Source of the DNA: Pectobacterium actinidiae
GTDB lineage: Bacteria > Pseudomonadota > Gammaproteobacteria > Enterobacterales > Enterobacteriaceae
Direction of reading: 5' to 3'
Length of the DNA: 64,000 nucleotides
Assembly: GCF_000803315.1 (NCBI RefSeq)
Contig: NZ_JRMH01000001.1
Span: 1,860,001 to 1,924,000 of the forward strand
The notes beneath the pieces are model-generated. The model saw only the letters and a program-made list of their open reading frames with translations. It ran no database searches and was not told the DNA's origin. Position numbers and translations under genes: made by a program. Shown here piece by piece: positions 28,830-42,736 of this stretch; position 1 is the stretch's first letter, and each line of letters opens with the position of its first letter.

Positions 28830-31800
28830 TTGAGCCAGGAATATACAGAAGATAAAGACGTTACCCTGAAAAAGCTCAGTGGAACACGTCGTTTGCTTGA
28901 AGCGATTTTAATCGTTGTGGCACTTTTTGCGGTTTATCTTAGTGTCGCACTACTCAGTTTCAGCCCCTCCGATCCCAGCTGGTCACAGACTGCATGGCAT
29001 GAACCTATTCACAACCTTGGTGGTGTAGCGGGGGCATGGCTGGCGGATACGCTGTTCTTTATTTTTGGTGTGCTAGCCTACGCCATTCCGCCGATTATGT
29101 TATCCCTGTGCTGGGCTGCTTTCCGCCAGCGTGATAACAGCCAGACGATTGACTACTTTACCTTTTCACTCCGCCTGATTGGGACATTGGCGCTGATCCT
29201 GACCTCTTGCGGTCTGGCTGCGTTGAATATTGACGATCTCTACTATTTTGCTTCCGGTGGTGTTCTGGGAAGCTTGTTGAGCAGCTCAATGATCCCACGT
29301 TTCAACAGCATGGGGGCGACGCTGATTCTCCTGTGCGTGTGGGGAGCAGGGCTAACGCTGTTTACCGGCTGGTCATGGTTAACGATTGCTGAAAAAATTG
29401 GTGCGGGTGTATTGGGCTGTCTGACATTTATGTCAAACCGTTCACGCCGCGATGAGGACTACCGCGAAGAACACGATCGCGAAGAAGATGAACGTGATGT
29501 GCTTAACCTGCGCCACGATGAAACCTCAGGTGAGGCAATAACACAACAGCGTGATGACGATGATGTCCTGTTTTCTGCCCCTTCCGTTGCTGATGCGGTA
29601 AACGACACGGCGGCAGAGAATAAGGTAGAAGCGTCATCACCATTGACGGAGAACGCACCGACAGCGACACAACCGGCGAGCTCCGCTGAAACGCCAGTGA
29701 TAGGGGCAACATTGTCTGATGCAGCAGTGCCTGATTCAGCATTACCAGGATCGGCATTCCCTGGATCATCGTCTGGCATTGTGCCACCTGTTACCCCATC
29801 TGCGATTGATTCGACGCCGTCGCTAAACCCGCCGCTGTATTCGTTTGAAGTCCCCGAAACGCCAGCGACAATCCCAGATATCGCAACTTCAGATGAACGC
29901 CATAGCAGTCTGTATGCACCTTACGGAAATACTTACGGAGAGAGTGCCGTACCGCCGATTGTCACATCTCCCGTGGTTCAACCGTTTGCTGAGCCACCAC
30001 AGCCTGCACGTGATATGGATTCCAATGCGAATAACACCTTTATGCCTGCGTTCAGTGCCGATGGGGATGATAATCCGCAAATTAAACGCGGCGTAGGACC
30101 AGAACTGCCGCGCCCTAATCCGGTGCGTATTCCCACTCGTCGCGAGCTGGCGTCATACGGAATCAAACTGCCGTCGCAGCGGCTGGCGGAAGAGCAAGCA
30201 AGGTTGCAGGCGCAGAACGGTAGCGCAGAAACTGAATTGGCGAATGACGTGTATCAGGAAGAGACTCCGGATGACATCGCCCAGCAGGAAGCGGCATTGC
30301 AGCAAGCGTATCTGGATCAGCAACGTCAGCGTTATGGCGATGAGTACCCGTTACAGGAAGACGATGAAGACACGCTCCTGCAAGCGCAGCTAGCCAGAGA
30401 TTTCGCGGCACAGCAGCAGTCACGTTATGACGCCAGCGCGTTCCAGCACGATAAAGAAACGCCTGCTCCGACTGCACCGCCTGTGGTCCATGAGCCCGTT
30501 CAGCCAAATCCTGTAGTACCTCAAGTAATACCGCAAGCCGTGTCACATGACGCTTTTTCATTTTCACCGTTTAGTGCGGAGAATGAACGCGAGGCTGAAT
30601 CGCATACGTTCAGCGAATCCACCTACCCGCAGCCGTCCTATAGCGTTGAGCCAGAACTTCCACCGATGCATGCTGGTGAAGATGAGGATGACGACGATGA
30701 GCGTAACCCGTTGACGGTGAGTCAGCCTGCGCAGCCGATGTCAGCGCCTATTGAGGCTGCGAAACAGGAGAATACGCCAGCGCACCATCCGGCAATGGAT
30801 GGTTTGATTCACCCGTTCCTGGTGCGTAATGAACAACCGCTACAAAAGCCGACTACGCCGCTACCAACGTTGGATTTGTTGACCCCACCACGAGCAAGCG
30901 AAGCGCCTGTTGATAATTTCGCCTTGGAACAGACGGCGCGACTGATTGAAGCGCGTCTGGCGGATTTCCGGGTAAAAGCAGATGTGGTCGATCACTCTCC
31001 TGGACCAGTCATCACGCGGTTTGAATTGGATCTGGCTCCAGGCGTTAAAGCGGCTCGTATCTCGAATCTGTCACGCGATTTGGCGCGTTCACTGTCGGTT
31101 GTCGCGGTGCGTATTGTTGAGGTGATCCCCGGCCGGCCGTATGTCGGGTTGGAACTGCCGAATGCGCATCGTCAAACGGTTTATCTGCGCGAAGTGTTGG
31201 ACTGCGACCAGTTCCGGGATAATCCATCGCCGTTGTCGATTGTGCTGGGTAAAGATATTGCAGGCGAGCCTGTCGTTGCCGATCTGGCAAAAATGCCACA
31301 CCTGCTGGTTGCCGGTACAACGGGGTCGGGTAAATCGGTCGGCGTCAACGCCATGATCATCAGTATGTTGTATAAAGCTACGCCGGAAGACGTACGCTTT
31401 ATTATGATTGACCCGAAAATGCTGGAGCTCTCGGTTTACGAAGGCATTCCGCATTTGTTGACGGAAGTCGTGACCGATATGAAAGATGCAGCCAACGCGC
31501 TACGCTGGTGTGTCGGTGAAATGGAGCGCCGTTACAAGCTGATGTCAGCCCTTGGTGTACGTAATCTGGCGGGATACAACGAACGGGTGATGACGGCAAA
31601 TGCGATGGGACGCCCGATCCCCGATCCGTTCTGGAAACCGGGTGACAGTATGGATATGACACCGCCAGTACTGGAAAAATTGCCGTATATCGTGGTGATG
31701 GTCGATGAATTTGCTGACCTGATGATGGCGGTGGGTAAGAAAGTTGAAGAGCTGATTGCCCGGCTGGCGCAAAAAGCGCGTGCTGCCGGTATTCACCTGG

Positions 31801-36245: not shown

Positions 36246-37400
36246 ATGTCTGCTTATTCCCGCCCAGTGCTGTTATTGCTCTGCGGACTTTTGCTGCTGA
36301 CGGTTTGTATCTCGGTATTAAATACCCTGGTACCACTTTGGCTGAGTTATCAATCACTTCCCGTCTGGCAGGTTGGCCTTGTTGGTTCATCCTACTTTGG
36401 CGGCAATCTGGTCGGAACGCTTTTAGCGGGTAAACTAATCAAACTTTATGGGTTTAACCGTAGCTATTATTTCGCGGCTTTATTATTTGGGATCGCGATT
36501 GTTGGCCTCGGTATTTCTGCTGATATTAGTAGTTGGCTGTTATGGCGTTTTCTTGCCGGTATCGGCTGTGCATTAATCTGGGTCGTGGTTGAAAGCGCTT
36601 TGTTATGCAGCGGAACGCCGACGCAGAGAGGGCAACTGCTGGCTGCTTATATGATTGCTTATTACCTCGGTAGCGTGGTTGGACAGCTCCTGCTTGGCGT
36701 ATTGCCTGACGCAGTACTGAACGTGCTGCCGTGGATGGTCGCGCTAGTTATTTTTGCAGTATTACCGCTGCTGTTTACTCGTCTCCCTACGCCGCCAGAG
36801 CAACAAGAAAAGCATGTCAATATGTGGAAAATGCTGACGTATCGTAGTGCCCGATTAGGAGTGCACGGCTGTATCATTTCCGGTGCAATTTTAGGATCGT
36901 TGTATGGCCTGATGCCGCTTTATCTCTCTCATCAGGGAATGAATGATGCGCAGGTTGGATACTGGATGGCGCTGTTGATTAGCTCCGGCATTATTGGTCA
37001 ATGGCCTGTTGGACGTATGGCCGATCGTTATGGTCGGTTGCTGGTTCTGCGGGTATTGGTTTTTGTGGTGATTGTTGGCTGTATTGCGATGTTAAGTATT
37101 AGCCACTATGCCATGGCACCGTCGCTGTTCCTGCTGGGGTGCGCTGGTTTTACGCTGTACCCTGTTGCCATGTCGTGGGCATGTGAAAAAGTGCGTCCTG
37201 ACGAATTGGTCGCGATGAATCAGGCCTTGCTCCTCAGCTATACGCTTGGCAGTCTTTGCGGACCAAGCGTTGCTGCGGTATTGATGCAGAGTTACTCCGA
37301 TCGATTGCTGTTTGTATTGATCGCGGTTGTCGCCATGATCTACCTGATGCTGTTGCTCAGAAAAGCCGATCATCATCCAACGCCATTAGCTGCTGCCTGA
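36246..37400 (+). CDS. ycaD: YcaD-like MFS transporter
   Basis: Predicted inner-membrane transporter of the major facilitator superfamily, 384 residues and about 12 helices. Its sequence follows E. coli YcaD (382 residues), including [38 protein letters not shown] and [17 protein letters not shown]. The substrate is unknown. I chose the ATG at 36246 (MSAYSRPV) because similarity begins there; the frame stays open to 36114 and no start has a good ribosome site. Its end overlaps the convergent LysR gene by 15 bp. Confidence 0.88.
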
Positions 37401-38327
37401 GCTAACGACATCGAGGCTGGCTAACGAACTTTGTCCCGCTTCTACCATGTTATTCCACAGCGCTTCGGCTACTGGGCTAAGGCGCTGTTTTGCGTTTCGC
37501 ACCAGATAAAATATGCTGGTTAGCTTTAAACGATCTGGAGCAACTGCTGAAAGCCTCCCTTTTTCCACCCAAGATGCTGCATAGTGGTCGGGGAGAAAGC
37601 CAATATGCGTTCCTGCTAGCAGAAGTAACAGGCTGCCTTCAAGGTGCCAGGCGGTCTGGTGGTAACCTTGCTTTGATACCGAGCCTAGTTGTTTAGATAT
37701 CTCGTTAACGGCGTGTCCGCCAATTAACAGCCTGCGAGGATTGAGTTCACCATTCATCCATTCACGTTCGATCATGTCAGCATTTTCTGCTAGAGAATAA
37801 AAGTAGCTGTGTTCAACAAAGACAGGCTGATAAAAAATGTCTGCGGGAATGTCATCGGGCAGGGCGCTTAGAACAACATCGAGATGACCGTTTTTTAACC
37901 GTTCCATGAGCGGAAGGTATTCCATAATTTCGATTTCGACATTAACTTCCGGGCTTTGATCATAAAGATGAGATATTGCTTCAGATACAACGTTATTGGG
38001 GTGTGTGGCGATATTATCCAAACAGCCTAATTTTACCTTACCTATCAGTTGATGTTTGATACGGGCTAGTCTGTTAGCAAAATCATCGAGCGTTGAAATG
38101 ACAGATTTTGCTTCCTGATAGACAACTTCACCTTCAGTTGTTAAGGCAAAACCTCCTCTGCCACGTTCACACAAAACCAGGCCAAGAGTATCTTCAAGCC
38201 GAGACAGATAGTGACTTAGGACGGGTTGGCTTAAGCCTGTCGCGGTTTGTGCATTGGTAATGCCTTGTTTTTCAACGATTTTACAAAAAAGCTTTAACCA
38301 GCGGATCTCCAGCTTATCTAAGCGCAT
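37386..38327 (-). CDS. LysR-family regulator of the adjacent hydantoin-type operon
   Basis: Transcription factor of 313 residues. The N-terminal winged helix-turn-helix covers about 10-70 ([33 protein letters not shown], by position). The C-terminal part is a periplasmic-binding-protein-like effector domain with [11 protein letters not shown] and a hydrophobic [19 protein letters not shown]. It is transcribed away from the NCS1 permease operon, so it most likely controls that operon in response to the imported compound or a product. The effector cannot be told from sequence. E. coli has no counterpart at this site. Confidence 0.9.
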
Positions 38328-38349
38328 AGCATTTCCTTCGCATACATTA

Positions 38350-38395
38350 CATATCTGAATGTTAACATCAAAATATATCTGTATTAATCGATATG
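38350..38395. promoter_or_regulatory. Candidate LysR operator in the divergent region
   Basis: CATATC at 38350-38355 faces GATATG at 38390-38395, and ATATCTG is directly repeated at 38351-38357 and 38375-38381, 24 bp apart. A GTTAAC palindrome lies at 38361-38366. The region starts 23 bp upstream of the LysR start codon, the usual place for LysR autoregulatory and activation sites. This is inference from layout. Confidence 0.4.
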
Positions 38396-38419
38396 AAACC
38401 CATTTATCTTGTTCTTACG

Positions 38420-38437
38420 CCACATTAATTGATGTGG
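38420..38437. promoter_or_regulatory. Short dyad CCACAT-N6-ATGTGG
   Basis: A perfect 6-bp inverted repeat with a 6-nt centre (CCACAT at 38420-38425, ATGTGG at 38432-38437) lies in the lysR-permease gap, between the candidate LysR operator and the leader hairpin. It may be another binding site or part of the promoter. Confidence 0.35.
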
Positions 38438-38489
38438 TCGCCACAAAAACGTGGTTTATGCGTCACATCAGGGTCTCTCATAAAAGCAT

Positions 38490-38521
38490 AATGGTGTCGT
38501 TAGCTTGCTGACGACACCATT
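38490..38521 (+). other. Leader hairpin upstream of the NCS1 permease gene
   Basis: AATGGTGTCGT at 38490-38500 pairs with ACGACACCATT at 38511-38521, an 11-bp perfect stem. It lies about 80 nt before the permease start, after the likely promoter, so it would be in the 5' leader. No T-tract follows. It may be an attenuation or protein-binding element, or the remnant of a terminator. Confidence 0.5.
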
Positions 38522-38601
38522 GTTCTATACGTTGCCAAACAACCTCTATAAAATATCACAACGATACAATAATTATTTGCTGCTTATTTAATGGAGGAAT
38601 T

Positions 38602-39933
38602 ATGTCTCAAGGGAATGCTGTGCCTGAAAAAGAACAACAGGAGCGGCAAATCTATGATTACGAATACGAACCTGTCCCTGCCGAAGCCAGAAAAAGCTGG
38701 TATGTCATTGCCCTGATATGGCTAGCTATAGGGATCGATATTTCTGGCTTGTTTCTAGGGTCTTTTCTAAGTAGTGGATTATCATTTTCTCAGGCTGTCA
38801 GCGCCACGCTTATTGGATCAGCATTGCTGGGTGTTCTTGCTGCCTTGTGTGCGAATGTCGGTTATGGATGTGGATTATCGACCACACTACTCAGTATCTC
38901 CGTTTTTGGGCGATTAGGTGGCAAAGTTATTGGCGTATTTTCCGCTGTTTCACTGGTTGGGTGGTTTGCCTTTCAACTCGATTTCTTTGGTGTGATGCTG
39001 CAAAAAGCACTGTCACATTATCAGCTTGAACCTGGACGCTTTTTTATCCTGCTTTTTGGTATGGCACTGATGGCATCAACGGCCATTTGGGGCGTTAGGG
39101 CGTTAGGGAAACTAAGCGCATTAAGTGTTCCGCTAATGCTTATACTCATTGTTTCAGGAATATATCTTGCGGCTAGTGGTCATTCTTCTCCTACCGACGT
39201 TGTCATTAAAAACCCGATAAGCTTAGGGAGCGCTATTTCTTACGTGGTTTCTATCTGGATAGTGGCGGCAAGTATCATGTCGCCTGATATCGCACGTTAT
39301 TCCAGAACACGTAAAGATGCCATATTGGGCTCAGGTTTGGGGTTCTTACTGGGAAACAGCGCAACGATTCTTGTCGCACTCATATTGACCCATATGGTTG
39401 GTAGTGACGATTTAGTCGAAATATTTTTTACTATAGGACTCGGTGTTTCAGCGATTGTGATTTTAATTTTCGCGCAATGGACGACGAATAGTTCTAATTT
39501 AATTTCAGCCTCATTAGGCCTCTCTGTCGTTGTCAGAGCAATATCTCGGCCAATATTAGTTGTGTTAATGGCATTTGCTGGTCTGCTTCTGGCTTATAAC
39601 GGCATGATTAATAACTTTACTCAGTTTTTGTCGTTACTGGGTGTCCTGATTTCCCCTATTGCAGGGGTTTACCTTGCTGAATATTACTTTTTTGACTCTT
39701 CGCGTCTAAAGCAGGACGCATCACAACCACCATTACTGAATATTTGTGCATCTATCGCATGGTTATGCGGCAGTTCTGTCAGTTTATTAACCGCTACAGA
39801 TTTTTTTGATTTGTTTACGATCACATCTGTTTCTACGCTGGATGGCATAATAATCAGCCTTGTGATGTATATCGTTATGCGGAAAATGTTCCCGCAGTTG
39901 GTGGAGTCTTCCCACCCACACTCTAAACCCTAG
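38602..39933 (+). CDS. NCS1-family (CodB-like) permease
   Basis: Inner-membrane symporter of the purine-cytosine permease/NCS1 family, 443 residues with about 12 helices. The N-terminal cytoplasmic tail (DYEYEPVPAEARKSWY) precedes the first helix, as in CodB. Family members import cytosine, purines, allantoin or hydantoins. With a DUF917 protein and a HyuA-like protein encoded next, a hydantoin-like or related cyclic ureide substrate is likely (inference). GGAGGAAT at 38592-38599 is a strong ribosome site. The gene looks AT-richer than its flanking core genes. Confidence 0.85.
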   Translation: MSQGNAVPEKEQQERQIYDYEYEPVPAEARKSWYVIALIWLAIGIDISGLFLGSFLSSGLSFSQAVSATLIGSALLGVLAALCANVGYGCGLSTTLLSISVFGRLGGKVIGVFSAVSLVGWFAFQLDFFGVMLQKALSHYQLEPGRFFILLFGMALMASTAIWGVRALGKLSALSVPLMLILIVSGIYLAASGHSSPTDVVIKNPISLGSAISYVVSIWIVAASIMSPDIARYSRTRKDAILGSGLGFLLGNSATILVALILTHMVGSDDLVEIFFTIGLGVSAIVILIFAQWTTNSSNLISASLGLSVVVRAISRPILVVLMAFAGLLLAYNGMINNFTQFLSLLGVLISPIAGVYLAEYYFFDSSRLKQDASQPPLLNICASIAWLCGSSVSLLTATDFFDLFTITSVSTLDGIIISLVMYIVMRKMFPQLVESSHPHSKP

Positions 39934-39959
39934 GTTACTCAGTGGGGATTGGATAAGTA

Positions 39960-41069
39960 ATGGTTCGCTATATTGATTTTGAAATGATTGATGACATAGC
40001 GCTGGGAGCCTCAATTCTTGGTACTGGCGGCGGTGGCGATCCTTATTTGGGATCGCTAATTGCAAAAAATGCTTTGCGCCACGGGAAGCCTGTAACGTTA
40101 TGCAATTTGGATGACGTAAAAGATAACGATCTTTTTATCCCATGCAGTACGATGGGGGCACCGACAGTCTCTGTGGAAAAAATCATTTCACCGCGGCAAA
40201 TTCTTCTGGCATTTGAAACAATGGAAAATTATCTCGCTGAGTCAGCAGTTGGGACTTTTTCCATCGAAGTCGGCGGCATCAATTCGTTAATACCGTTAGT
40301 GGTTGCGGCCGCAAAAGGGTTACCTGTTATCGATTGTGACGCGATGGGGAGAGCCTTTCCCGAAGCGCAGATGGTGACCTTTTTTCTCGATGATTTAACC
40401 TCTGCTCCGAATACATTGGCGGATGAGAAAGGTAATGCAGTCATCCTTAATCCCATTGATGGTATGTGGTCGGAACGGTTGGCCCGCTCAATTGTGGAGC
40501 AAATGGGAGCAGCCTGCGCCATGTGTGATTACCCACTGCGCGGTAGTCAGCTTAAGCGTAGCGCCATCAAAGGAACGCTGACGCTAGCGCGGGATATAGG
40601 AAGAATGCTTCGTCTGGCTCACCAGTCGGGCAGCCATCCTGTGCAGTCTCTGCTTACGGTGCTGAATGGTCATATTGTTGCATCAGGGAAAATTGTTGAT
40701 GTAGCACGACGCACAACCGGTGGTTTTGCTCGGGGTAACGTGGTGCTGGATGGCATGGGGAACGATAGAGGCGAATCGTTTACGGTACTTTTCCAGAATG
40801 AGTTATTGCTCGCTTATCGCTCATCACAGGTGAAAAAACCTACACAGGATAATCTGCTGGCCGTTGTGCCTGATTTAATCTCCATAGTAGATAGTGAAAC
40901 CGGACGTCCGATTATCACGGAACATTTACGTTATGGGCAGCGAGTCGATGTGATTGCCTATCCGTGCAATGACAAGTGGCGAACGCCAAAAGGGATTGAC
41001 GTTGCGGGGCCGGAGTATTTCGGTTATCCGGTGCAGTATGTGCCGATAGAACGGCTTGCAAATCGCTGA
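39960..41069 (+). CDS. DUF917 family protein (S-methyl-thiohydantoin desulfurase-like)
   Basis: Protein of 369 residues in the DUF917 family. The glycine-rich motif LGTGGGGDPYLG lies at about 20-31, followed by CSTMGAPTVSVEK and the central DCDAMGRAFPEAQM, both typical of this family. Newer domain naming links the family to S-methyl-thiohydantoin desulfurase, but few members have been studied. The gene is 26 bp after the permease and 10 bp before the HyuA-like gene, so the three form one operon. The actual reaction is not known. Confidence 0.82.
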   Translation: MVRYIDFEMIDDIALGASILGTGGGGDPYLGSLIAKNALRHGKPVTLCNLDDVKDNDLFIPCSTMGAPTVSVEKIISPRQILLAFETMENYLAESAVGTFSIEVGGINSLIPLVVAAAKGLPVIDCDAMGRAFPEAQMVTFFLDDLTSAPNTLADEKGNAVILNPIDGMWSERLARSIVEQMGAACAMCDYPLRGSQLKRSAIKGTLTLARDIGRMLRLAHQSGSHPVQSLLTVLNGHIVASGKIVDVARRTTGGFARGNVVLDGMGNDRGESFTVLFQNELLLAYRSSQVKKPTQDNLLAVVPDLISIVDSETGRPIITEHLRYGQRVDVIAYPCNDKWRTPKGIDVAGPEYFGYPVQYVPIERLANR

Positions 41070-41079
41070 GGCTTTCCCG

Positions 41080-42648
41080 ATGTTACATAAAAATGATTAC
41101 CGACTCGGGATTGATGTCGGCGGCACCAACACGGATGCGGCAATTTTAGATGTTGATCTACACTGCATCGCGACGGCCAAATTTCCTACCAGCCTGGATA
41201 TCTACAGCGGCATCGAACGGGTGATTGCGGAAGTATTGGCGCAGTCTGGCATCGCCCCGCAGCATATTCGCTATGCGATGTTGGGGACAACCCAATGTAC
41301 CAATGCCATTGTTGAGCGGAAAGGGCTGGATCGCGTCGGAATGTTGCGCCTTAGCCTGCCAAGTAGCGATAGCGTCCCGCCGCTGTTTGGTTGGGATGAC
41401 GAGTGGCAAAGGACATTAGGCGAGCATTTCTATCAGATTCATGGCGGCTATGAATTCGATGGTCGAGAGATTCATTCTGTACTGCGGAATGAAGTGCTGG
41501 CAGTTTGTGACAAGATGCGTGGCCATGTCGATAGCGTGGCTATCTGTGGTGTATTTTCTCCCGTAAATAATGAACAGGAACTACAGGTTGCCCAGTGGGT
41601 GAGCGCGGCATTGCCAGAGGTTTCTGTGTCGTTATCCCATCGGATAGGCAGCACTGGATTGTTGGAAAGGGAAAACGCGACCATCCTGAATGCATCGTTG
41701 CAAAGCACCGCGAACCGCTTTGTTAACGGCTTTACGCAAGCGCTAGTCCGGCACGGTATCAAGGCTACGCCATTCTTCGGGCAAAATGATGGCACATTGA
41801 TGTCCGAGAGTATGGTGAAGCAATATCCCATTTTGACGATGGCCTGTGGGCCAACAAACTCGATTCGTGGGGCGTGCCACCTTTCGGGACTGAATAATGC
41901 GCTAATTATCGATGTCGGCGGTACGACGACAGACATTGGCGTGTTGGTGAATGGCTTCCCGCGTGAATCGGCAATCGCCGTTGAGGTCGGTGATGTGCGG
42001 ACGAATTTCAGAATGCCAGACATTATTTCTATCGGCATTGGCGGTGGAACCTGCGTGCGGCAGTCTCAGGATGGGAAACTCACCCTTGGGCCGGATAGTG
42101 TCGGCTATCGCCTGCTTGAACAGGGGATCAGCTTTGGCGGGGAGACGTTAACGCTTAGCGATATCATGCTGCAACTTCATCGTGAGAGATGGACTACGGC
42201 GCTTCCTCTTCCGCTGCCCGAACTGGATAACGCTCTTTGCCAGCAGGCTTATCGCCAGATGATTGATAAAGTGGAAAGTGCTATCGATCGGATCAAATCG
42301 TCAAACACGGCAATTCCCGCGGTGCTTGTGGGCGGTGGCAGTATTTTACTGCCTGATGTTTTATCTGGTGTCAGTCAGGTCATGCGCCCGCAGAATTTTG
42401 ATGCGGCAAATGCGGTTGGTGTTGCGTTAGGGAAGGTGGGTGCACAGATCGAGCGCGTAGTTAAAATGCCTGATAACGATCGCGAGAAGATAAAAAGTGA
42501 ATTGCAGCAGCAAACCAGGTTTCTTGCACAAGAGATGGGTGCCATGCCGGGCAGCGTTGAAATCATCGACTATCAGGAAATTCCGTTGGCTTATCTGCCA
42601 GGGAATGCGGTGCAGGTGAAAATCAAGGCGGCAGGGAATTTGGCTTAG
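41080..42648 (+). CDS. HyuA-like hydantoinase/oxoprolinase family ATPase
   Basis: Protein of 522 residues with a hydantoinase A/oxoprolinase fold of the ASKHA ATPase superfamily. The first phosphate motif GIDVGGTNTD is at 10-19 and the second, IIDVGGTTTDIG, near 276-287. Such enzymes use ATP to open hydantoin or 5-oxoproline rings, usually with a HyuB partner. No HyuB gene is here; the DUF917 protein takes its place in the operon. The ATG at 41080 has GAGG (41068-41071) eight bases upstream. Confidence 0.85.
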   Translation: MLHKNDYRLGIDVGGTNTDAAILDVDLHCIATAKFPTSLDIYSGIERVIAEVLAQSGIAPQHIRYAMLGTTQCTNAIVERKGLDRVGMLRLSLPSSDSVPPLFGWDDEWQRTLGEHFYQIHGGYEFDGREIHSVLRNEVLAVCDKMRGHVDSVAICGVFSPVNNEQELQVAQWVSAALPEVSVSLSHRIGSTGLLERENATILNASLQSTANRFVNGFTQALVRHGIKATPFFGQNDGTLMSESMVKQYPILTMACGPTNSIRGACHLSGLNNALIIDVGGTTTDIGVLVNGFPRESAIAVEVGDVRTNFRMPDIISIGIGGGTCVRQSQDGKLTLGPDSVGYRLLEQGISFGGETLTLSDIMLQLHRERWTTALPLPLPELDNALCQQAYRQMIDKVESAIDRIKSSNTAIPAVLVGGGSILLPDVLSGVSQVMRPQNFDAANAVGVALGKVGAQIERVVKMPDNDREKIKSELQQQTRFLAQEMGAMPGSVEIIDYQEIPLAYLPGNAVQVKIKAAGNLA

Positions 42649-42690
42649 CGTCGCGCATTAACACTGCGGTGATATCTACTCGCAAAATGA

Positions 42691-42719
42691 AAATAGCGCG
42701 CCATGAGCGCGCTATTTTT
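42691..42719. terminator. Bidirectional terminator between the hydantoin-type operon and pflA
   Basis: AAATAGCGCGC at 42691-42701 pairs with GCGCGCTATTT at 42707-42717 and is followed by T on the plus strand; on the minus strand TTTTCATTTTG follows. It serves both converging units. Confidence 0.9.
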
Positions 42720-42736
42720 CCAGAAAGCGTCAGACG

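Follow-up and report, generated by a model that had tools for sequence, protein, structure and literature searches.

A candidate DUF917–HyuA module for uptake and ring opening of a small cyclic amide in Pectobacterium actinidiae

Described relatives and the gene block

Caprolactamase (CapAB), 5-oxoprolinase and N-methylhydantoinase act on lactams or hydantoins with two proteins, one of which is an ASKHA-fold kinase carrying the motifs DxGGTxTD and DxGGT. In the caprolactamase model given in passages of PMC8453981, an activated lactim is formed in CapA and undergoes metal-assisted hydrolysis in CapB, and mutations of Asp residues in the phosphate motifs lowered product formation. We analyzed a 64,000-nt stretch of the P. 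actinidiae genome (contig NZ_JRMH01000001.1, positions 1,860,001–1,924,000; hereafter, the window), in which a gene for a HyuA-type kinase follows genes for an NCS1-family permease and a DUF917 protein. The window block shares with these enzymes the kinase motifs, the two-protein design and the expected lactam or hydantoin chemistry. It differs from the HyuA–HyuB class in that its HyuA is short (approximately 520 aa) and lacks Hydant_A_C and the GxxPGP motif, its partner is a DUF917 protein, and no HyuB is found in the block or the genome. We put at about even the chance that this block is a minimal module for uptake and ATP-dependent ring opening of a small cyclic amide (a lactam, cyclic dipeptide or hydantoin).

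For the DUF917 family (PF06032/PF20906), NCBIfam names two functions, S-methyl thiohydantoin desulfurase (NF058532) and thiohydantoin desulfurase (NF058529). The window protein has the Pfam family and an expected small-ring chemistry in common with these desulfurases, but differs from them in its low score, its fixed residues, its lack of ergothioneine-pathway neighbors and its HyuA partner. The sole solved relative found, PDB 2o3i (Chromobacterium violaceum CV_3147; E 3.2e-15 by sequence), was also the top Foldseek match of the weak window model, and was deposited as a hypothetical protein with no function given. Ring opening of hydantoin-like compounds by DUF917 proteins has already been proposed in print: passages of PMC11055893 suggest, from sequence and structure comparisons, that they are hydantoinases yielding N-carbamoyl products. 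Permease, DUF917 and hydantoinase annotations, the same three as in the window, are listed together in Clostridioides difficile (PMC12915319) and Lactobacillus rhamnosus (PMC7513527), and the passages concerned assign them no function. Genes annotated as DUF917 and hydantoinase/oxoprolinase are neighbors in bacteria of the gut, food, soil and plants, with no substrate found in print. Our literature search found no experimental function for the pair; most subscription journals were outside this search, and a published function may exist.

A preliminary description of this DNA had recognized a divergent LysR regulator and a permease/DUF917/HyuA operon between ycaD and pflA. ORF (open reading frame) calls and Pfam confirmed this four-gene block, with gaps of 26 bp (permease–DUF917) and 10 bp (DUF917–HyuA) as first noted. 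The four genes are as follows.

37386..38327, minus strand: LysR-type regulator, 313 aa (ORF; Pfam HTH_1 and LysR_substrate)
38602..39933, plus strand: NCS1-family permease, 443 aa (PF02133, Transp_cyt_pur)
39960..41069, plus strand: DUF917 protein, 369 aa, S-Me-THD family (PF06032, S-Me-THD_N; PF20906, S-Me-THD_C), proposed hydrolytic partner
41080..42648, plus strand: short HyuA-type ASKHA ATPase, 522 aa (PF05378, Hydant_A_N; PF01968, Hydantoinase_A), proposed ring-activating subunit

The start of HyuA is the ATG at 41080, and the mechanical ORF list begins at a TTG at 41056. LysR has both its helix-turn-helix (HTH) and substrate domains by Pfam, and stayed below the cut-off of all 25 NCBIfam models listed among the 46 that matched it.

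The DUF917–HyuA pair, its importers and the desulfurase question

Co-conservation was investigated in 398 genomes of the phylum. All 12 HyuA matches at E ≤ 1e-40, three of them from Pectobacterium, adjoined a DUF917 gene. DUF917 matches at E ≤ 1e-10 numbered 24, and the 14 reaching E ≤ 1e-60 were all located in HyuA operons; the 10 weaker ones (L106–L114 and L120) had no HyuA match at E ≤ 1e-40 and no HyuA relative in their stretches. The pair also recurs in Vibrio, Bacillota, Actinomycetota, Alphaproteobacteria and the archaeon Haloferax, and 136 of 72,556 plasmid records matched the window DUF917. The pathway idea of the preliminary description had depended on such joint conservation and on intact ligand-site residues. 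The pairing indeed recurs elsewhere, and the HyuA phosphate motifs, the DUF917 acidic residues and the Mhp1-type ring residues of the permease are all present.

Importer genes were counted in the fetched loci outside Pectobacteriaceae and Vibrio. An NCS1 gene lies beside the pair in 14 loci (L052, L053, L054, L055, L057, L058, L059, L062, L063, L098, L116, L122, L126 and L128), and an ATP-binding cassette (ABC) importer in 13, eight by annotation (L056, L060, L061, L123, L124, L125, L129 and L159) and five by alignment (L100, L101, L103, L104 and L117). Four loci (L044, L098, L099 and L115; L098 also with NCS1) have a common gene that Pfam identified in L115 as a TonB-dependent receptor. Since NCS1, ABC or TonB-type genes stand beside most pairs, the enzyme pair and an importer appear to travel together. 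The NCS1 type was seen in Geobacillus, Peribacillus, Planococcus (where the permease is in two overlapping pieces), Listeria, Enterococcus, Lactiplantibacillus, Limosilactobacillus, Arsenophonus and Sodalis, and the ABC type in Mesorhizobium, Rhizobium, Aminobacter, Aureimonas, Alloyangia, Qingshengfaniella and Haloferax. Regulators near annotated pairs were of the PucR, TetR, Lrp, LuxR or sigma-54 type. In addition, five loci (L123, L124, L125, L056 and L159) carry two or three DUF917 genes near one HyuA; DUF917 hetero-oligomers may account for this arrangement.

The nearest solved relatives of HyuA by sequence were N-methylhydantoinase 7hk5, PDB 6yra (listed as a 5-oxoprolinase in the sequence search and titled caprolactamase in the Foldseek result) and subunits of acetone and acetophenone carboxylases. 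Window HyuA has the Pfam domains of its family and both phosphate-binding Asp motifs (D12 and D278), which are named here after passages of PMC8453981. Of 50 short HyuA rows from such modules, 47 had both motifs intact; the other three are degenerate further copies (L052:4201-5592, L063:255-3485 and L121:2734-4305), with an intact module and a divergent copy of DUF917 close to each. HyuB (PF02538) had no match in the P. actinidiae genome in a search that, run as a control, was positive in 6 of 14 genomes.

Window DUF917 scored 181.9 bits for PF06032 and 227 bits for PF20906 (cut-off, 27). Its scores against the two NCBIfam functions were far under the cut-offs, 88.4 of 450 bits for NF058532 and 81.8 of 440 bits for NF058529. 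In an alignment of 72 DUF917 rows (59 from HyuA operons and 5 desulfurase-type), E73, E103, N108, D127 and E172 were invariant in all 59 operon rows. In all five desulfurase-type rows, E73, E103, G106, N108, D127, M129 and E172 of the paired proteins, that of the window among them, were replaced by P/A, Q, K, S, V, D and S, respectively. The desulfurase set looks derived, because four unpaired rows (L107, L108, L109 and L119) retain E103 and E172. These concrete residues set the pair apart from the sole named DUF917 function, the desulfurases, as its short HyuA and DUF917 partner do from the HyuA–HyuB enzymes.

The locus L112 carries a true desulfurase relative, whose DUF917 protein exceeded the cut-off of the thiohydantoin desulfurase model, with 601.8 bits against 440. 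Its neighbors are thiourocanate hydratase, ErtD (hydantoin-5-propionate amidohydrolase) and ErtE (N-carbamyl-glutamate amidohydrolase), that is, an ergothioneine cluster, and no HyuA relative occurs in this stretch. L110, L111, L114 and L120 group with L112 in the DUF917 tree; among them, L112 alone was scored against the desulfurase model. None of the three neighboring enzymes is encoded in the window block, and a search of the P. actinidiae genome for ErtD relatives, which lacked a positive control of its own, gave no match. Another DUF917 type was observed in a genome of the same family (G743; L113:6710-7762), with 238.8 of 440 and 215 of 450 bits, both under the desulfurase cut-offs.

These data bear on thiohydantoin degradation, in which DUF917 would remove sulfur and HyuA would open the resulting hydantoin. 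Desulfurases are the sole NCBIfam functions for the DUF917 matches found here, and genes for an OsmC protein and a near-cut-off match to the L-cysteine desulfhydrase Cds1 (572.1 of 600 bits) come after the module on a Streptomycetaceae plasmid (L057), which hints at a sulfur-containing product in that plasmid. However, Cds1 was seen in this one searched locus only, so a sulfur substrate was not generalized from it, and the window block contains no sulfur gene. Two frames 3' of DUF917 in Embleya had no NCBIfam match. With the scores, the seven differing residues and the gene context all against it, a thiohydantoin or S-methyl thiohydantoin pathway was rejected for the window block, and we consider it very unlikely. 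The preliminary description had envisaged a self-contained pathway for a small cyclic compound such as a hydantoin or (methyl)thiohydantoin. A regulated, co-conserved combination of uptake and enzyme genes is borne out and a hydantoin stays among the candidates, while the (methyl)thiohydantoin part is not upheld by the scores, the residues and the absence of the partner genes from the block.

The window permease exceeded the PF02133 cut-off (72.2 versus 23.5 bits), and its closest solved structures were CodB and Mhp1. According to passages of PMC4195764, Mhp1 contacts hydantoin through Trp117, Gln121, Asn318 and the backbone of Gly219; according to passages of PMC9379551, CodB contacts cytosine through Gln105 and Trp108. 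W121, Q125, W219, N296 and N299 of the permease aligned with W117, Q121, W220, N314 and N318 of Mhp1, and among 20 other aligned permease rows the Q125 equivalent was present in 18 and the N318 equivalent in all. The window protein has the NCS1 family and the stacking Trp in common with both carriers and keeps the polar set of Mhp1 (Q121 and N318), but differs from CodB at Gln105, where it has Leu118, and from Mhp1 at Gly219. The Leu118 replacement, together with a score of 202.2 of 326 bits for the cytosine permease model, ruled out identity as a cytosine permease. Judged from these aligned residues, the site favors a planar amide ring, whose identity it does not name.

Proposed mechanism and candidate substrates

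In the proposed route, LysR would sense the compound and turn on the divergent operon, and the permease would import the ring, stacked on W121 and held by Q125 and N299. As in the mechanism proposed for 5-oxoprolinase and caprolactamase, HyuA would then use ATP to phosphorylate the carbonyl oxygen of the ring. The part of HyuB would fall to DUF917, which would add water to the activated ring and so open it; by analogy, the related desulfurases take their name from the displacement of sulfur at a comparable activated carbon. The opened product would join central metabolism without a dedicated carbamoylase.

Several observations weigh against this reading. The GxxPGP adenosine motif was found in none of the 50 short HyuA rows, window included, and in all three long ones, and the C-terminal PF19278 (Hydant_A_C), present in a long HyuA (L098:713-2791), was not reported in window HyuA at E ≤ 0.001. 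As both are missing, the nucleotide and the reaction of HyuA could differ. The catalytic role of DUF917 is argued by analogy: across the 51 main paired rows, neither a His nor a Cys reached 90% conservation, meaning that the Asp-His-Asp-His metal site of HyuB has no conserved counterpart. In addition, one DUF917 protein (L131), classed among the "other" rows and encoded next to a degenerate HyuA-like gene, has D at position 73 and A at 103. AlphaFold models of the two enzymes, built as single chains from 20 and 19 sequences, were poor (mean predicted local distance difference test scores, 50.6 and 59.1), and being this weak they leave the active site unreadable, with Foldseek merely confirming the families. 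In the permease, the position of Mhp1 Gly219 is Ile218; moreover, W117, Q121 and N318 of Mhp1 are important in other NCS1 carriers too (passages of PMC4195764), so the ring site does not prove a hydantoin-like ligand. Finally, five modules (L043, L102, L105, L118 and L127) have no clear importer directly attached.

As to the substrate, the neighbors of relatives point several ways, toward racemases and AroM, peptidases or cysteine desulfhydrase. The block could encode an ATP-dependent hydantoinase converting 5-substituted hydantoins to N-carbamoyl amino acids, which we regard as unlikely. The comparison-based proposal of hydantoinase activity in passages of PMC11055893 and the Mhp1-type ring site agree with it, as do AroM genes near the paired relatives L103, L104, L105 and L127 and Asp/Glu/hydantoin racemases near L044, L102, L121, L123, L124 and L125. 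However, the ring site is common to other NCS1 carriers, and the window block has neither a racemase nor a dedicated carbamoylase. The P. actinidiae genome gave 16 M20-family matches, and of the 12 compared with ErtE one (L149) aligned well. NCBIfam assigns it as allantoate amidohydrolase (817.9 bits; cut-off, 584). Because this is the sole carbamoylase-type enzyme recognized in the genome, a ring yielding an amino acid or dipeptide is, in our judgment, a somewhat better fit than one yielding an N-carbamoyl amino acid.

Cyclic dipeptides, opened to dipeptides for ordinary peptidases, would require no extra enzyme. Dipeptide-type ABC importers accompany several relatives (SBP_bac_5 in L103, others by alignment), and in Alloyangia genes for an isoaspartyl peptidase and a dipeptidase come after two DUF917–HyuA pairs. 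Furthermore, PF06032 genes are enriched in cyclodipeptide-oxidase clusters, which the authors link to hydantoin or allantoin chemistry (passages of PMC11055893). The two peptidase genes were found in one fetched locus only, however, and the other nearby hydrolases, an aminopeptidase P fragment (L054) and an M20 hydrolase (L127), lie on the opposite strand. Cyclic dipeptides are not known as NCS1 cargo, which counts against this substrate. We rate it as another improbable but plausible candidate.

It is also conceivable, though in our estimate quite improbable, that DUF917–HyuA is a sensor or detoxifier and not an enzyme of a nutrient pathway. Second, degenerate DUF917/HyuA copies, for example that of L052 beside a sigma-54-dependent regulator, would suit such a role, and a study of a nitrosative-stress regulator tabulates positive fold changes for the permease, DUF917 and hydantoinase genes of C. 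difficile (passages of PMC12915319). Against it, importers are frequently linked to the pair and the site-like residues are fixed in the main copies.

More broadly, and as a tentative proposal that we think somewhat more likely to fail than to hold, DUF917 and short HyuA may form a separate class of ATP-dependent cyclic-amide hydrolases in bacteria and archaea, in which DUF917 replaces HyuB and the importers are interchangeable. In Pectobacterium, exchange of the parts that face the ligand (the LysR ligand-binding domain, the permease and the DUF917 N-terminus) would keep its specificity diverse, while the promoter and the ATPase stay fixed.

Spread of the block, exchanged segments and regulatory region

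A DUF917 match was present in all 24 other Pectobacterium genomes searched. Twenty-seven loci were compared (11 Pectobacterium, 4 Brenneria, 1 Samsonia and 11 Vibrio). Fourteen of the 16 Pectobacteriaceae loci have all four genes in the same order; the exceptions are L027, cut by a contig end and the one locus in which LysR was not found, and L041 (Pectobacterium sp. PL152), in which the permease and DUF917 frames are broken. Wherever the contig shows both flanks, the block of these 16 loci sits between ycaD and pflA. Identity to P. carotovorum DSM 30168 was 96%. In Pectobacterium sp. PL152 (L041/L045; genome G022, where the DUF917 match is split into three pieces), LysR, HyuA and the flanks are intact despite the broken frames, which may reflect decay or sequencing error. 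All 11 Vibrio loci have the identical gene order, at identities to the window of 38–41% (LysR), 54–55% (NCS1), 59–61% (DUF917) and 56–59% (HyuA), and their stretches contain no serS, ycaD or pflA match. At the class level, DUF917 matches at E ≤ 1e-20 were found in 6 of 369 genomes, including that of the window.

As for the view in the preliminary description that the block breaks into the gene order of E. coli, caution is needed: the E. coli record examined has ycaM in the ycaD–pflA gap, and dmsABC and ycaC between serS and ycaD. At blastn sensitivity, the DUF917–HyuA DNA matched no E. coli genome of the collection. In 12 genomes of the same family, searched with PflA and fetched to approximately 1.5 kb beside each match, the aligned ends of ycaD and pflA were 54–108 bp apart in five, so the block is absent there, and 0.6–1.0 kb apart in two; ycaD was not within the fetched stretch in the other five.

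Within Pectobacterium, the window was compared with a second allele group (class B: P. brasiliense, P. versatile, P. aroidearum, P. betavasculorum, P. zantedeschiae, CFBP8739 and PL152). Two deeply diverged segments were found to have passed between species, whereas the promoter and HyuA are conserved.

37400..38050, minus strand: exchanged part of LysR, ligand (effector)-binding domain; DNA identity to class B 64–72%, flanks approximately 90%; own tree
38700..40250, plus strand: exchanged segment with most of the permease and approximately the first 100 DUF917 codons; identity drop and tree conflict

The window and class B were 81–98% identical over ycaD, the HTH/promoter region of LysR, HyuA and pflA. 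Identity was 61–79% in the part of LysR for ligand binding and again over a stretch running from within the permease to the first part of DUF917, and a transition zone deeper in DUF917 showed 78–89%. Third-position GC (LysR, 0.41; NCS1, 0.40; DUF917, 0.46; HyuA, 0.55) changes at the same border. The window allele type occurs in P. carotovorum and P. fontis and a close variant in P. polonicum, and P. peruviense combines a LysR of the window type with a third deep permease type. In the HyuA tree, the window groups with P. carotovorum, P. brasiliense and P. versatile (support 94), whereas in the permease/DUF917 N-terminal tree it groups with P. carotovorum, P. fontis and P. polonicum, and class B groups with Samsonia (support 100); the flank tree resolves poorly inside the genus. 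In approximately unbiased (AU) tests, the HyuA topology was rejected for both exchanged segments (permease segment, p 2e-93; LysR segment, 2e-56), as was the permease topology when applied to HyuA (3e-103). A further conflict exists between the permease and LysR trees (AU 0.001 and 3e-34, the second with a Shimodaira–Hasegawa value of 0.08).

Against six class B strains, synonymous divergence (dS) was 1.86–2.66 for the permease and 0.33–0.68 for HyuA (1.99 and 0.33, respectively, against P. versatile). Nonsynonymous divergence (dN) against the same strains was 0.30–0.34 for DUF917 residues 1–100, compared with 0.15 against Brenneria alni, and 0.03–0.07 for residues 236–369. As dS is high as well in the exchanged segments, rapid amino-acid change alone was ruled out. 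The LysR HTH, outside the segments, is no clean low-divergence control because its dS is 0.72–1.23 within the genus.

As a background control, 35–38 kb around the block was divided into 300-bp bins in five genomes, poorly aligned bins being uncounted. Bins below 78% identity numbered 5 of 118 (G011), 5 of 119 (G013), 8 of 119 (G024), 8 of 126 (G012) and 3 of 126 (G010, which carries the window-type allele and was picked as a contrast). They lay inside the exchanged segments in all cases for G011 and G013, in 6 of 8 cases for each of G024 and G012 and in none for G010, which ruled out ordinary background as the source of the divergence. Low-identity bins outside the block were observed at 29601–29900 and 30501–30800 against G010, G012 and G024. 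That the exchange alters specificity is our hypothesis. Strains with near-identical HyuA and a different permease and DUF917 N-terminus constitute a natural experiment, and their substrates should differ if the exchange concerns specificity.

The other features of the block are the following.

38359..38368, strand not assigned: perfect palindrome ATGTTAACAT in a conserved block upstream of LysR, invariant in all 14 aligned intergenic regions
38490..38521, plus strand: intergenic hairpin with 14 pairs and a 4-nt loop, with compensatory changes
42690..42719, strand not assigned: HyuA–pflA intergenic hairpin with A and T runs, by direct sequence reading

The palindrome ATGTTAACAT is a candidate LysR operator. 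In the intergenic hairpin, 99% of cells were paired and 7 of the 14 pairs had changed on both sides. This covariation, which spans Pectobacterium, Samsonia and Brenneria, was reached by none of 500 shuffles, and slid versions scored much lower. No Rfam match was obtained for it, and simple promoter and terminator scans of 38300–38640 found none. The hairpin may be a leader or insulator element. In two Brenneria rows, its last two stem bases form part of a terminal run of five T, which makes an attenuator or insulator possible. At the outer ends of the block, the 3' ends of LysR and ycaD share 15 bp in a tail-to-tail overlap, and the region 3' of HyuA to 42720 is intergenic; the hairpin located there is probably a bidirectional terminator.

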